From Stenotrophomonas sp. ZAC14D1_NAIMI4_1 (GTDB lineage Bacteria; Pseudomonadota; Gammaproteobacteria; Xanthomonadales; Xanthomonadaceae), in the NCBI RefSeq assembly GCF_003086775.1, contig NZ_CP026001.1, positions 1,700,407-1,764,406 on the forward strand: a DNA stretch of 64,000 nt, written 5' to 3'. Below the pieces are notes generated by a model, which was given only the letters and a program-made list of their open reading frames with translations, had not been told where the DNA came from and made no database searches. This document shows, one piece after another, positions 8,414 to 58,107 of this stretch (position 1 is its first letter; every line of letters begins with the position of its first letter). The position numbers and the translations under genes were made by a program.

Positions 8414-8489
<76 letters not shown>

Positions 8490-14727: not shown

Positions 14728-14801
14728 GGCCTCATGGCAGAGTGGCTATGCACCGGATTGCAAATCCGTTTACAGCGGTTCGATTCCGCTTGAGGCCTCC
14801 A
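14728..14801 (+). tRNA. tRNA-Cys (GCA), prophage integration site
   Basis: 74 nt with CCA. Acceptor GGCCTCA/TGAGGCC, anticodon GCA, TTCGATTCC T-loop. From the anticodon stem to the 3' end the sequence recurs at 58058, so the gene was rebuilt by the prophage: the 5' part is host DNA and the 3' part comes from the phage att core. Confidence 0.98.
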
Positions 14802-14803
14802 AT
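14754..14803 (+). repeat. attL core
   Basis: 50 bases identical to attR, beginning CGGATTGCAAATCCG and ending GCCTCCAAT. Covers the tRNA-Cys anticodon stem to CCA plus AT. Confidence 0.95.
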
Positions 14804-15096
14804 CAAACCCCTGATTTATCAGGGGTTTTTCTTTGCTCGAAATATCTCGCGCGGTGGAGAAACGCGTGTTTCGGGCCCAAAATTGACGCTCTGCCAGCTG
14901 TTCTAACGTGGCAAACTCACGTAAACATGATAGAAGTGCGATTACGTCAGTTGAGCTAATCGCTTGCGCTTTGGCATGAAAGGCCGATGCTGGTGGTCAG
15001 CACACGACTTCAGTTGCGTCCGTTGGCGGGGCGGTTGCTTGAGTGGACTCATTGAAGCAGTATCCATCTACGAGTAGACAAGGACACTGTCGATAG
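14804..15096. other. Phage left-end non-coding segment
   Basis: About 290 bp without a convincing gene. It holds the phage-supplied terminator and the leader of the first cargo gene. An inverted repeat CCATCTA (15065-15071)/TAGATGG (15094-15100) includes the ATG at 15097 and could hide it in a stem. Confidence 0.5.
14806..14830 (+). terminator. Phage-supplied terminator for tRNA-Cys
   Basis: AACCCCTGA, TTTA loop, TCAGGGGTT, T-run, placed directly after the rebuilt tRNA-Cys. It replaces the host terminator now found beyond attR. Confidence 0.88.
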
Positions 15097-15684
15097 ATGG
15101 ACCACCTGGCTGCAATTGACCTCGGGCTCTCGGGCAGAGTCGCCCACGACAAAATCGCAAGGAAAGTATTTCTAACGTATCCGACTCAGGCATTTGTCGG
15201 CAACGAAGAACTGCAGTATGAGATCCTCAACGAAGTCGCAGAGCAATGGGCTGTGCCCATTACTAGTATCCATGTGTGCGGATCCGCGAAGCTGGGAGTT
15301 AGCATACACAAAGCTCGCGCCTTCGTCGCGGGACAGTCTGATTTGGATCTTGCAATCATCGATGAGAGACTTTTCATAGGTTATATGGAAGCGGTCCTGA
15401 ACTTGACTAAAGGCTACACCGATGGGTCGCGGTTCCCATTGGTAAAGGGAGTTAGTTACAAGGAGCAGTACCTTGCCTATGTCGCCAAGGGTATGCTTAG
15501 GCCTGATCTGATGCCGGTATCCGAAATGCGGGCGGAATGGACGAATTTCTTTGGCAGGTTGAGTGCGAAACATAATAGGGAATTTAAGTCGATCTCCGCG
15601 ATGATCTATCTATCTGAACGATTTTTTGAATCTAAACAGCGATCTGTCATCCGTGGGCGGGTTGGTATGGGAGTGGTAAAGTGA
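15097..15684 (+). CDS. Nucleotidyltransferase-like protein of a cargo operon
   Basis: 195 residues. The polymerase-beta-type nucleotidyltransferase signature is visible as CGSAKLGVS (Gly62-Ser63) followed by SDLDLAIID (Asp82, Asp84), though the gap between GS and the DxD pair is wide. The C-terminal half is helical and basic. Clearly AT-richer than the phage backbone, a sign of separate transfer. Its TGA overlaps the GTG of the DUF262 gene by 4 bp, so the two products are probably made in fixed ratio and act together. Location between attL and integrase is typical of accessory cargo. Substrate unknown; a toxin, defence or signalling role is inference. Confidence 0.72.
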   Translation: MDHLAAIDLGLSGRVAHDKIARKVFLTYPTQAFVGNEELQYEILNEVAEQWAVPITSIHVCGSAKLGVSIHKARAFVAGQSDLDLAIIDERLFIGYMEAVLNLTKGYTDGSRFPLVKGVSYKEQYLAYVAKGMLRPDLMPVSEMRAEWTNFFGRLSAKHNREFKSISAMIYLSERFFESKQRSVIRGRVGMGVVK

Positions 15685-16748
15685 TTGAATACAAAGTCCG
15701 TTCGGTTTCTCTTTTAAATCTGATCAACGATATTCGTAATCGTAGGTTGATCCCTGATGCTTATTTTCAGCGGAATCTTGTTTGGCGGGATGTGCATAAG
15801 CGGGAGTTCATCGAAACCATCTTGAAGGGCTATCCATTCCCGCAAATCTTCATTTCTAAGGGCAAGGTTGACGTTGAAGAGATGTCGACTGTCTCATGTA
15901 TTGTTGATGGGCAGCAGCGTTGTAACGCCATAGAGGCGTACATTTCTGAGCAGTTTGAAGTTGGGGGGAGAACATTCTCTAACCTTACAGATGAAGAAAA
16001 GTCAGCATTTCTCAAATATGACGTTCCGGTAATTGAGCTTGATTTGGAAAATGATGACCCCAAGGTTCAGGAGATCTTTCAGCGCATTAACCGGACTTCA
16101 TCTTCGCTGACGTCGATCGAGAAGCTGGCGTCGCAGTATTCCACTTCAGAATTTATGCTGGTTGGTAAACTGCTGGTCGATCAAGTAAGCCTCAAAGCTT
16201 CGGCAGACGAAGATTTCAGGGAGGATCCTAATATTCCCGAAGATTTCTATAACTGGGCTGCCAAGCAGAAAGTTAAGTCGATTCAAAAGTTGATGAGTGA
16301 GAAGGGCGTCTTTAGTTATCAGGAAATAGCTAGAAAGACGAATTTGATGCACATTTTGAACGTCATGGCCACCTTGCTTGCCGGATACTCGAATCGAAAC
16401 GAGAAGGCAAACGATTTGCTCGACGACTACGCACTCTCATTTGGTGAGCGCGATAATGTGGTTAGGCAAATTGAGGCAGCGGCTGAATTGATTCTTTCGC
16501 TTGGTTTCAAGGGTAAATCTTATTGGCTTAATAAGGCGAATGTTTTCACTCTTCTTATTGTCATTGCGAGTATTCAGGTTAATGGTGGAAAGTTGGATAA
16601 GGAGCGCGTTGCGCACGCATTGAAGGAATTCGAGGCAGAGCTTCCGGCCGACTACAAGCTCTCTGCAACTGAAGCAGTGAACGGTACAAAGGCTAGGCAG
16701 CTGCGCGGAGAGTACATCTCGGAAGTGTTGCTGAAAACGCTTAGTTGA
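15681..16748 (+). CDS. DUF262 (ParB/GmrS-like) domain protein
   Basis: 355 residues, GTG start overlapping the upstream stop. Residues 1 to about 150 carry the DUF262 pattern: IPDAYFQRNLVW (25-35), a helix EFIETILKGYPFPQI, IVDGQQR (74-80) and FQRINRTSSSLTSIEKLAS. DUF262 domains are found in GmrSD-type and SspE-type phage-defence nucleases or NTPases, where DGQQR is the active-site motif. No HNH (DUF1524) domain can be seen at the C-terminus (about 160-355, all-helical), so the effector must differ from GmrD. AT-rich like its partner. Confidence 0.82.
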   Translation: MIEYKVRSVSLLNLINDIRNRRLIPDAYFQRNLVWRDVHKREFIETILKGYPFPQIFISKGKVDVEEMSTVSCIVDGQQRCNAIEAYISEQFEVGGRTFSNLTDEEKSAFLKYDVPVIELDLENDDPKVQEIFQRINRTSSSLTSIEKLASQYSTSEFMLVGKLLVDQVSLKASADEDFREDPNIPEDFYNWAAKQKVKSIQKLMSEKGVFSYQEIARKTNLMHILNVMATLLAGYSNRNEKANDLLDDYALSFGERDNVVRQIEAAAELILSLGFKGKSYWLNKANVFTLLIVIASIQVNGGKLDKERVAHALKEFEAELPADYKLSATEAVNGTKARQLRGEYISEVLLKTLS

Positions 16749-16890: not shown

Positions 16891-18006
16891 ATGGCGACGA
16901 AAAGGCGAAGGGGGAGCTCGTGGCAATTCACCATTCGACGAGCAAAGGTGCTTCCTCAGCCAGTTTATCTGACGTTTAGCTCTGAGGCGGAGGGTGATGA
17001 ATATGTGCGGAGACTTGAGGCGCTTCTTGATCGGGGAGTCGTTCCCGACGAGCTTCTGAACACTAAGGCGGCGGCGAAAGATCTGCGTGGCCAGGTCAGT
17101 GAATACCGGGGTGCGCAGCATATCTCGCTGGATGATGAGCAGTTACTGCCAGTGTTGCTGTCGCGGTTGCCGATAGGTATCACGCTTCCGCAGCTCACCT
17201 TTACCTGGGCCACCGACTGGGTCACCACAATGAAGCGCGAGCAGAACCTCGCGCCATCCACCATTCGGCATTACGTGGGGGCGTTGTCGCGGGCTCTCGA
17301 CTGGCTGGCCGCTCACGGTGCGCTGCCCATGAATCCGCTTCGTCTCCTGCCGCGCGGTTATTCGACGTACACGCCCGACGACAAGGTGGCTGTGGCGAAA
17401 ATCGATGGGCACGCGAAAAATGATCAGGAGCGCGATCGCCGGCTAGAAGAGGGCGAGGAAGCTCGCATTCGAGAGATCATGGCTGGGGCTAAGCCCGAGG
17501 GCCGCCAGAGAGCGCTGGATCTTCCACAGCGTGATGCGCTTGTGCTGATGTTCGAGATGGCGCTGGAAACGGCCATGCGCATGCGGGAGATCTACACGCT
17601 GGAGCACAGCCAGATAGATGTTGCGCGCCGCACGATCTTCCTGGACAAGACAAAGAACGGGAGCAAGCGCCAGGTGCCGATGACGTCGGTGCTGCTAGCC
17701 AAGCTCGCGGCGTACAAGGGTGACTTCGGCGGGCGGTTGTTTCCGTTCTGGGAGGGCGAGCGTAGCCCGCTGGCTCTGCGCCGTGTTTCGAGCAAGCTCT
17801 CGCGCCAATTCGAGCGCATCTTCGTTGCGGCGGGCTGCGCGGACCTTGGCTTCCACGATCTGCGCCACGAAGCAACAAGCCGACTCTATGAGAAGACCAC
17901 GCTGACGGACATCAAGATAGCGAGCATCACAGGGCATCGCGATCCGCGGCAGCTAAAGCGATACGCCAACCTGCGTGCCTCGGACTTGGCCGATCAGCTC
18001 TGGTGA
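16891..18006 (+). CDS. Tyrosine-type phage integrase
   Basis: 371 residues. Core-binding domain about 95-165; catalytic domain from about 190 with Arg230 (TAMRMREI), Lys near 255, HDLRH (His322, Arg325), GHR (His349) and the nucleophile Tyr358 in LKRYANL. All key residues are present, so it should be active at the tRNA-Cys att site. Unusually it lies about 2 kb from attL, with the cargo operon in between. It converges with the next gene, overlapping by 13 bp. Confidence 0.96.
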   Translation: MATKRRRGSSWQFTIRRAKVLPQPVYLTFSSEAEGDEYVRRLEALLDRGVVPDELLNTKAAAKDLRGQVSEYRGAQHISLDDEQLLPVLLSRLPIGITLPQLTFTWATDWVTTMKREQNLAPSTIRHYVGALSRALDWLAAHGALPMNPLRLLPRGYSTYTPDDKVAVAKIDGHAKNDQERDRRLEEGEEARIREIMAGAKPEGRQRALDLPQRDALVLMFEMALETAMRMREIYTLEHSQIDVARRTIFLDKTKNGSKRQVPMTSVLLAKLAAYKGDFGGRLFPFWEGERSPLALRRVSSKLSRQFERIFVAAGCADLGFHDLRHEATSRLYEKTTLTDIKIASITGHRDPRQLKRYANLRASDLADQLW

Positions 18007-55635: not shown

Positions 55636-55731
55636 GGCCGGGAGCCTCAATGCCTTTGGCATGGGGCAATTTCGCCGCTAATGCGCTATAAGCTACGGCG
55701 CGATAACGCATGGAAGTGCCAAGGGGGCGCA

Positions 55732-56772
55732 ATGGAAATCAAGGGTGCGGTTGTTCACAAGCTTGGCAAGGATCAGCATTCGTCCGGCCCAGGGAGCGTG
55801 CAGGTACATCTGCGCGATAATCCATTGCCGCTCGATGGCACGCTTACGTCCGTCTGCTCACAGACTTTGAATCTCTTCCAGCGCAAAGGCAATAACACCG
55901 GAACATTTGGTGTCGATGTGGATATCCATAGGTTCCCTGTGCGCGTCGGAGAGTTTGTACGTTCACAGTTGACCTTCAGTGAATTTACCGCCCATGTGGT
56001 CAAGATCATCGGCGACAAAATGGAGCAGGCTCCTCTTTCAAATGGTGGGCACGCCTTCTTCGTTCACTACACTTCGGGTGGTGATGAGTTCCTGTTGATC
56101 GCGATGCTTAAACTGCGCGAGGGCGCTGGCATCGATGAGATTAGTTTGGATCTGATGCCGACGTTGGTTATCGATACCGATAAGCTGCATGAGGCCGCAA
56201 GGCTTAATGTCTCGAGGTGGCAATTCGGCGACGAGCCTTACCTCACTTTTATCAAGGGTCGTGGAGCCGATGAGGTCACCGCCTATTTCCGAGAGGCACT
56301 CTCTTGCGTCGTTTATACGAGTAGTAGGCATCACACCTCACAGATGATCGCTGCGGCTGGTGCATATGTTGCGGATTTGCCGCTGCTTGACCAGGAGTCT
56401 AAGAAGAAGGTGTGGACTGATGTAAGAGAGCGCCTTTTTGACTGTTTCTCATCAAACAAGGAAGAGGTGGTTCTGGCCGCAATTGCAGTGGCAGTAGATC
56501 CTCTGCAGCCTCATTTGTTTGAAGAGTACGTCACGACTGGGGCGGGGGCGAGCACGTATCAGGTCAGCCATCAGTTCAAGCCTGATAGGACGACCTATAG
56601 CAGTTTGCGTCGTATTCGTGGGAAAATGGGTACCGTAGCGGTAGCTTTCGAGGTCGAGGATGTGCGGCAGGGGCGCGTTGCATATGACGAAAATAGCGAT
56701 GCCCTTCTGATTTTCGGACCCTCTGCAGAGTTGAAGAAGGAAATCGAGGACAATGTCACACCTGGTTCCTGA
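55732..56772 (+). CDS. NdpA/YejK-type nucleoid-associated protein, cargo gene
   Basis: 346 residues from ATG 55732, with AGGGGGC just before it. The NdpA pattern is visible: VVHKLGKD at the start, LNLFQRKGNNTGTFG, GGHAFFVHYTSGGDEFLLI, and the later ADEVTAYFREALSCVVY. Family members bind DNA or associate with the nucleoid; their exact work is unsettled. The gene is AT-richer than the phage backbone and overlaps the membrane protein gene by 20 bp, so they form a unit at the attR end. A defence or exclusion role is inference. Confidence 0.85.
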   Translation: MEIKGAVVHKLGKDQHSSGPGSVQVHLRDNPLPLDGTLTSVCSQTLNLFQRKGNNTGTFGVDVDIHRFPVRVGEFVRSQLTFSEFTAHVVKIIGDKMEQAPLSNGGHAFFVHYTSGGDEFLLIAMLKLREGAGIDEISLDLMPTLVIDTDKLHEAARLNVSRWQFGDEPYLTFIKGRGADEVTAYFREALSCVVYTSSRHHTSQMIAAAGAYVADLPLLDQESKKKVWTDVRERLFDCFSSNKEEVVLAAIAVAVDPLQPHLFEEYVTTGAGASTYQVSHQFKPDRTTYSSLRRIRGKMGTVAVAFEVEDVRQGRVAYDENSDALLIFGPSAELKKEIEDNVTPGS

Positions 56773-57949
56773 TGATGCTCAGTCTGCGGCCATATGGCTT
56801 CTAGATCAGCTGGAAGAAGTACAGCCTTCGGATTTGGATGACGCTTTACTGCAGGGTCGTCTTTCCCGAGGTCACGACTTCTTAGGTGTCGTCGAGCGCT
56901 TGGCTCAGGTCGCACCGCGACTTGTATGGGCCGCTGAGGAGCGAGGGCGTCTTATTACGTTCACTCCTCAGAATGCAGGCGTGTATACGTCGCTGTCGGA
57001 GTTCTTGTCCGCCAGCGTGAGTCATCGGAGAACCGTTCCCGCCCGTTTCTTCATCCGTGATAGTCGGTATTTCGGGCCCGGGGTGCGCAACGAGGCTCCG
57101 GCCGACGTCGCAAGCTATTACGACATGATCTGCTTGGCCGAAATAGTAAGGAACGTAGCGGATTATCCTTCCGCAGCGGATAGGTTTGCCAATTTTGTTG
57201 TACGGCCGGATGCGAAGTTTCGTGTAGAGATGGATTTCTCAGCTACGGATTTGGTTCCCATTATGGGGATTGAAGAGTTTTCATCGGGCTTTCTTCTTTC
57301 TGATTTTCACGTAGATGAGAAGCGGGCGATCGTGCGGGATTGCTTGGCCGATTTGGCAAAGGGCATGACTACGGTCCCGCTCGTTGTAGTGGCCCGTGGA
57401 TTCGATGCGGTGATGAAGAACGCTCAGGCTTCCTACGCTTTGCTACTGTCAAAGTTCTCTGCGGCATCCGTTCAGAAAGAAGTGGATAAACAGAATTTGG
57501 AGGATACGCTGCGCCTCAATAAGACCTTCTCTGAAATTCAGAACCAGCTCCTAGCACTGCCCGCGGCGCTTCTCGTTGCCGGCGCCGCCTTCGAGACGGG
57601 CAAGGTCTATAAGAATGCGGCCATTTTTCTTGGTGTGGCTATATTTGTGGTCCTTATGTTTCTACTGATTAGGAATCAGAAAAATTCTGTGTCTGCAATC
57701 AGTGCGGAAATTGCACTTCGGAGAGCCAATCTTGAGGGTCAGCCAGACGCCGTTGCGGCAATGTACATCCCCGCTTTTTCCGCCTTGGAGAGGCGAGTCA
57801 ACACCCAGCAAAGAACGCTGAATGTGGTGCTCGCCCTATCGGCACTGGTCTTCTTCTTTGCTGCTTATGCATCCCTGGATAGCGCCTTGGAGGGCGGCCT
57901 CAGCGACGCTGGTCTGGCACTAGTGAAGCTCGCATTCTGTTGGCACTGA
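56753..57949 (+). CDS. Membrane protein paired with NdpA, cargo gene
   Basis: 398 residues. A soluble N-terminal part of about 260 residues, then membrane segments LALPAALLVAGAAFETG, AAIFLGVAIFVVLMFLLI (about 265-303) and, after a helical stretch, LNVVLALSALVFFFAAYASL (about 362-381). No family recognised. AT-rich, last gene before attR. A cytosolic sensor domain joined to a membrane domain is the design of many abortive-infection effectors, but that is inference. Confidence 0.72.
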   Translation: MSHLVPDDAQSAAIWLLDQLEEVQPSDLDDALLQGRLSRGHDFLGVVERLAQVAPRLVWAAEERGRLITFTPQNAGVYTSLSEFLSASVSHRRTVPARFFIRDSRYFGPGVRNEAPADVASYYDMICLAEIVRNVADYPSAADRFANFVVRPDAKFRVEMDFSATDLVPIMGIEEFSSGFLLSDFHVDEKRAIVRDCLADLAKGMTTVPLVVVARGFDAVMKNAQASYALLLSKFSAASVQKEVDKQNLEDTLRLNKTFSEIQNQLLALPAALLVAGAAFETGKVYKNAAIFLGVAIFVVLMFLLIRNQKNSVSAISAEIALRRANLEGQPDAVAAMYIPAFSALERRVNTQQRTLNVVLALSALVFFFAAYASLDSALEGGLSDAGLALVKLAFCWH

Positions 57950-58057: not shown

Positions 58058-58107
58058 CGGATTGCAAATCCGTTTACAGCGGTTCGATTCCGCTTGAGGC
58101 CTCCAAT
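58058..58107 (+). repeat. attR core
   Basis: 50 bases identical to attL. Here only the 3' part of tRNA-Cys is present; the 5' half is missing, so no tRNA is made. Confidence 0.95.

Follow-up and report, generated by a model that had tools for sequence, protein, structure and literature searches.

A nucleotidyltransferase-DUF262 gene pair in a Stenotrophomonas prophage as a predicted phage-defence cassette

Introduction

Proteins with a DUF262 domain are known from systems that protect bacteria against phages, and a DUF262 nucleoside triphosphatase (NTPase) domain with a DGQQR motif is common to the type IV restriction proteins GmrSD, BrxU and SspE and to the protein treated here. The DUF262 part of SspE was reported to hydrolyse nucleoside triphosphates (NTPs), NTPs were reported to promote the activity of BrxU, and the resistance provided by Menshen and Dazbog to be lost when their DUF262 gene is mutated or deleted (PMC10952713, accessible portion of the article). 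In the MNT-HEPN pair, a small nucleotidyltransferase gene comes first and its partner second. In the present study a two-gene unit of Stenotrophomonas sp. ZAC14D1_NAIMI4_1 was analyzed, in which a short nucleotidyltransferase gene is likewise the first and a DUF262 gene the second. It lies in a prophage within a window (the whole stretch of DNA analyzed, to which all coordinates refer) of 64,000 nucleotides, positions 1,700,407 to 1,764,406 of contig NZ_CP026001.1; the host genome comprises 4.70 Mb in a single contig.

The pair is very probably a defence cassette of some kind, and protection against phages is predicted. This reading is based on observed gene order, pairing, co-divergence, motifs, predicted folds, hotspots and the other partners found in sister DUF262 systems. 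The two genes and their motifs are as follows; rows are those of the relatives described below.

15097..15684, + strand: minimal nucleotidyltransferase-like protein, 195 amino acids, ATG start, no family name
15280..15285, + strand: GS motif, residues 62-63, kept in 39/39 scorable rows
15340..15348, + strand: DxD motif (DLD), residues 82-84, kept in 39/39 scorable rows
15499..15507, + strand: RPD motif, residues 135-137, candidate third carboxylate, 29/40 rows
15681..16748, + strand: DUF262 / GmrSD_N (ParB/sulfiredoxin (Srx)-like NTPase) protein, 355 amino acids, GTG start, PF03235 with E 1.8e-21
15906..15920, + strand: DGQQR nucleotide-pocket motif, residues 76-80, 40/40 rows

Comparison of the gene products with known systems

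The DUF262 protein had been described in the original prediction as carrying DGQQR without an HNH domain, and this was borne out by Pfam, which detected neither a DUF1524/HNH match nor a nuclease domain; membership in GmrSD was rejected, as the DUF1524 HNH nuclease is missing. A fold search had been proposed for both proteins, and the models were compared by VIA-align. The predicted DUF262 structure, with its helical C-terminal part, resembles BrxU in the ParB/Srx-like NTPase and helical portions and aligns to BrxU residues 1-422 only, ending before the nuclease residues D474/H475. In PADLOC the best match was NsnA (E 6.3e-19), likewise a DUF262-only protein of similar length and matched by all 17 scanned relatives, but the match spans only residues 2-145 of 355. 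NsnA and NsnB are presumably the components of Menshen. There the partner NsnB is an OLD-type ATPase, whereas here it is a nucleotidyltransferase, with an integrase as the other neighbour; since NsnB has no match in the window pair, membership in Menshen was rejected. Protein A of PD-T4-2, also DUF262-only, was matched with E 1.3e-7 and in 17 of 17 scanned relatives, but the window protein aligns at residues 22-90 only and the nucleotidyltransferase matches no PD-T4-2 model. A REase_II match in PADLOC was obtained for the window DUF262 protein and for relatives.

For the nucleotidyltransferase no family above cut-off was found in Pfam, NCBIfam, PHROGs or PADLOC. The Pfam match to Flexi_CP_N (E 0.074) looks like chance, the PADLOC scan of 17 relatives gave nothing usable (E 0.017 at best), and sequence searches of the PDB returned no match or matches with E of at least 0.099. 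The GS...DxD signature, which had been noticed beforehand, is present, and the spacer from S63 to D82 measures 18 residues, presumably longer than usual. The AlphaFold model (pLDDT 84, pTM 0.83) suggests a minimal fold of the Pol-beta type; its structural matches are weak, the best of them being the MNT of MNT-HEPN. That system differs in its partner, HEPN versus DUF262 in 40/40 paired loci, and in the length of its enzyme, the MNT chain 8xeh_E comprising 104 amino acids versus about 200 here.

A nucleotidyltransferase beside a ParB-like pocket could also be thought of as a signalling pair, the product of the enzyme binding the pocket and switching the DUF262 protein on, which would amount to CBASS-like logic with new parts. 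This is highly improbable: only two weak PADLOC cyclase matches were obtained, each from 1/17 members and with a best E of 0.025, the nucleotidyltransferase of about 200 amino acids is shorter than the CD-NTase chains in the structural comparison (300-374), and Pfam finds no cyclic-nucleotide receptor domain in the pair.

No named system matching the pair is contained in PADLOC-DB 2.0.0 (2023), so that later names may be missed. The pair is likewise not described among the matches listed in the open-access literature searched, a search with most subscription papers and all supplements outside it, nor in the accessible portions of PMC10952713, PMC3710099, PMC12409362, PMC13119452, PMC8565348, PMC12839542 and PMC9122126. 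It is probably a DUF262-based two-component defence cassette without a name in these sources, and a recent name is possible.

Conservation of the pairing across genomes

A survey of gene neighbourhoods had been suggested as a check of conserved co-occurrence, and 40 loci, after removal of repeats, were found to keep a short nucleotidyltransferase gene directly followed by a DUF262 gene (L001, L002, L022 (= L003), L008-L021, L023-L034, L038, L065, L073-L076, L079, L084, L085, L087, L088). They come from Proteobacteria, Cyanobacteria, one Planctomycetota metagenome-assembled genome and proviruses; as the nucleotidyltransferases of L073 and L074 are identical, 39 are distinct. L038 was reached from the DUF262 side, and the other relatives were sought from the nucleotidyltransferase. 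In whole-genome samples the latter was matched in 7/297 genomes of the family, 5/299 of the order, 2/369 of the class and 3/398 of the phylum, counts which include the window's own genome each time as well as the longer type mentioned below. A search of genome_contigs gave 11 loci, searches of viral_contigs gave 12 loci, then 5 (all repeats) and 15 (7 new), further relatives came from plasmids, and a DNA search with the pairs of two relatives found one in 5426 E. coli genomes. The phage record collection held no match for two nucleotidyltransferase queries, and viral_contigs none for the lone window sequence, so that the relatives were reached by alignments.

Where measured, the two genes overlap or are separated by at most 12 bp. 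The nearest relatives of the window pair (L087, L088, L023, L024, L025) share 35-43% identity in the nucleotidyltransferase and about 49-55% in DUF262. Across 30 pairs the distance matrices of both proteins correlate with r 0.95, a value reached in 0 of 5000 permutations, which fits joint inheritance as a unit and is no proof of contact. DUF262 adjoins the short nucleotidyltransferase in 40/41 loci, L067 being the exception, or 40/45 if L004-L007 are counted. These four encode longer enzymes of 350-439 amino acids, the C-terminal part of L005 matching DUF6932; no DUF262 match was found within the fetched 3-kb stretches, and they were treated as another family outside the pairing count. Chance adjacency was rejected, as the DUF262 profile occurs in 68/297 genomes of the family, mostly once each, and yet pairing reaches 40/41. 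The pairing goes beyond chance because 40 loci share the adjacent pair and the distance matrices correlate.

Loss of the motifs in relatives had been named as a finding that would speak against the pair, and no such loss was seen for GS/DxD, kept in all 39 scorable rows (the fragment row L032, whose nucleotidyltransferase is split over two frames, being set aside), or for DGQQR, kept in all 40. The RPD site is more variable: an acidic residue stands at or adjoins it in L023, L025, L026 and L038, and none is found in L033, L034, L073-L076 and L085 (7/40). A remote nucleotidyltransferase homologue on an Aliarcobacter plasmid (L067, 3941-6600; profile E about 1e-20) is followed by DUF4365, not DUF262.

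Several relatives have neighbours of their own. In L085 (3691-5459) a C5 cytosine DNA methyltransferase gene (PF00145) overlaps the nucleotidyltransferase start, as if in one operon, and in L076 (7049-8788) a gene for a KAP-family NTPase lies about 0.5 kb 3' of the pair. In L004 and L006 a neighbouring open reading frame (ORF) appeared Fic-like by eye, that of L006 being without Pfam match. The metagenomic contigs L073 and L074 differ in their flanks, and their DUF262 proteins, although similar in the 150 N-terminal residues compared, are not identical over the full length; this perhaps reflects a recent movement of the cassette.

Placement in anti-phage hotspots

Three anti-phage hotspots were reported by Rousset et al., namely between psu and int in P4-like satellites, between gpA and gpQ in P2-like phages and between the cI repressor and the integrase in P2-related phages of Vibrionaceae (PMC9122126, accessible portion). 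Relatives of the pair occupy all three kinds: by PHROG annotation, the pair of L027 lies between an integrase and a Psu-like protein, with one extra ORF before the latter, and those of L023 and L024 lie between repressor and integrase, with one extra ORF before the pair in L024; in E. coli strain 1500 the pair is situated between replication endonuclease and portal genes. An integrase occurs no more than about 0.8 kb away from the pair in 6/6 viral loci with ORFs listed (L023, L024, L025, L027, L029 and L032 out of 12 viral loci, hence no unbiased rate), that of L025 on the opposite strand. On inspection of L026 an endolysin was present and no integrase noticed.

Prophage-borne genes need not serve defence, and the pair could be a lysogeny or addiction cassette that stabilizes the prophage, or a pair of general fitness genes. 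That no obvious mobile element surrounds L022 (8 kb flanks), L087 and L088 (about 1.5 kb flanks only) favours this explanation over defence; the presence of relatives in three kinds of published hotspot and the relationship to DUF262 components of known defence systems make it very unlikely.

Partners of sister DUF262 proteins and possible mode of action

Sister DUF262 proteins of the same bacterial family were inspected for their neighbours. From the 68/297 genomes with profile matches 30 loci were taken, 4 of which contain the nucleotidyltransferase, and neighbours were inspected for 13 of the remaining 26. By Pfam, a HEPN gene lies 3' of DUF262 in L046, L049, L050, L053 and L057, and in L042 (1435-3497) DUF262 is followed by a RelA_SpoT-domain protein, possibly another two-gene defence pair. 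In L045 the neighbour is an AAA protein by Pfam, corresponding to NsnB in PADLOC (1.7e-82); L039 and L059 have candidate partners with an RNxxxH-type motif and no Pfam match. By eye, L040 and L043 are like L039, L047 is like L045, and L041 is without clear partner. DUF262 also lies beside the integrase of an E. coli phage record (L066), together with a protein that contains RNACAH and has no Pfam match. Given these varied neighbours, DUF262-only proteins are a module that occurs with different partners, of which the nucleotidyltransferase is one. The pairs with HEPN or RelA/SpoT resemble the window pair in that a DUF262-only protein stands beside one effector-like gene, and differ in the type of partner and its position, 3' there and 5' here.

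With regard to the division of labour, slightly less than an even chance is given to a DUF262 protein that senses and switches and a nucleotidyltransferase that acts, an assignment made because of the analogy with HEPN, RelA/SpoT and OLD-type partners. For NTP hydrolysis, sensing, direction of control, target and abortive outcome we infer the following course. The ParB/Srx-like pocket of DUF262 would bind and hydrolyse NTP, the protein would recognize some signal of infection, which may be phage DNA, and would then release or activate the small nucleotidyltransferase. The latter would attach a nucleotide to a target in the host, with RNA (for example tRNA) as the likeliest acceptor and a protein or small molecule as the alternative, and would stop growth, so that a competing phage could not multiply.

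The roles could also be reversed, as in a toxin-antitoxin pair in which DUF262 would be the toxic or DNA-cutting effector, held in check by nucleotidylation or binding through the nucleotidyltransferase as antitoxin, a mechanism proposed for MNT with HEPN, until infection breaks this hold. The position of the nucleotidyltransferase gene in front, the precedent of MNT-HEPN (PMC3710099, accessible portion), the REase_II match of DUF262 and the overlap of the L085 pair with a DNA methyltransferase gene all speak for such a reversal and weigh against DUF262 as the sensor. By analogy it has an appreciable chance but is doubtful, as an effector-like partner (HEPN, RelA/SpoT, OLD-type ATPase) is encoded separately next to sister DUF262 proteins and Pfam detects no nuclease domain in the DUF262 protein.

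The original prediction of a defence module was supported in part, by the relatives in hotspots and the defence-type partners of sister DUF262 proteins; the RPD motif, which is not universal, and the DUF4365 partner of the remote L067 detract from it. A wider proposal, which we consider unlikely, is that the pair would represent an unnamed, widespread class of phage immunity. A minimal nucleotidyltransferase and an NTPase of the ParB/Srx type would regulate one another through the transfer of a nucleotide, either to DUF262 itself or in diffusible form, and the class would be one branch of a larger DUF262 family of modular build, in which partners of the nucleotidyltransferase, HEPN RNase, RelA/SpoT and OLD types replace each other.

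Prophage setting and further features of the window

The prophage is integrated at a tRNA-Cys gene and flanked by attL and attR.

14754..14803, + strand: attL, 50-bp exact direct repeat within tRNA-Cys (14728-14801)
16891..18006, + strand: tyrosine integrase of the prophage (PF00589, E 1.1e-18), next gene 3' of the pair
58058..58107, + strand: attR, exact copy of attL, 50-bp repeat, tRNA-Cys

The interval from attL to the integrase holds both + strand genes of the pair, in agreement with the cargo slot originally proposed. The claim of two coupled genes of low G+C content (GC) at 15097..16748 was also confirmed: their ORFs are joined by a 4-base GTGA overlap, and the GC of the pair is 0.467 (nucleotidyltransferase gene 0.497, DUF262 gene 0.451) versus 0.643 in the prophage at 18007-55680 and 0.606 in the integrase. 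Among 834 sliding windows of 1652 bp in the prophage, 8 have a GC as low as or lower than the pair; as they advance by 50 bp, these are probably the ones covering the pair itself. A pattern scan gave a single promoter-like site (minus strand) and a single terminator-like hairpin (14805-14828) just 3' of the tRNA, both counts being below those of shuffled sequences. With the window integrase as query, only the integrase of L029 was matched among viral relatives, besides itself.

At the opposite prophage end, just inside attR, a second overlapping AT-rich gene pair is located on the + strand (55681-56772 and 56753-57949, GC 0.531), perhaps a second cargo cassette. It encodes an NA37 nucleoid-associated protein (PF04245, E 3.6e-44) and a product of 398 amino acids, membrane-bound-looking by eye and without Pfam match. 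Just before the prophage, four tRNA-Gly(GCC) genes at 8414, 12904, 14368 and 14586 span 6.3 kb.

Implications

Annotation of defence genes can easily overlook the cassette, because its nucleotidyltransferase has no family above cut-off and its homologues are labelled hypothetical protein in two public annotations (a Cronobacter plasmid and E. coli 1500). The varied partners of DUF262 offer an approach to what is sensed by DUF262-only proteins and to whether the outcome depends on the partner, and with the E. coli homologue, which lies in a P2-type hotspot, the cassette becomes testable in a laboratory strain.
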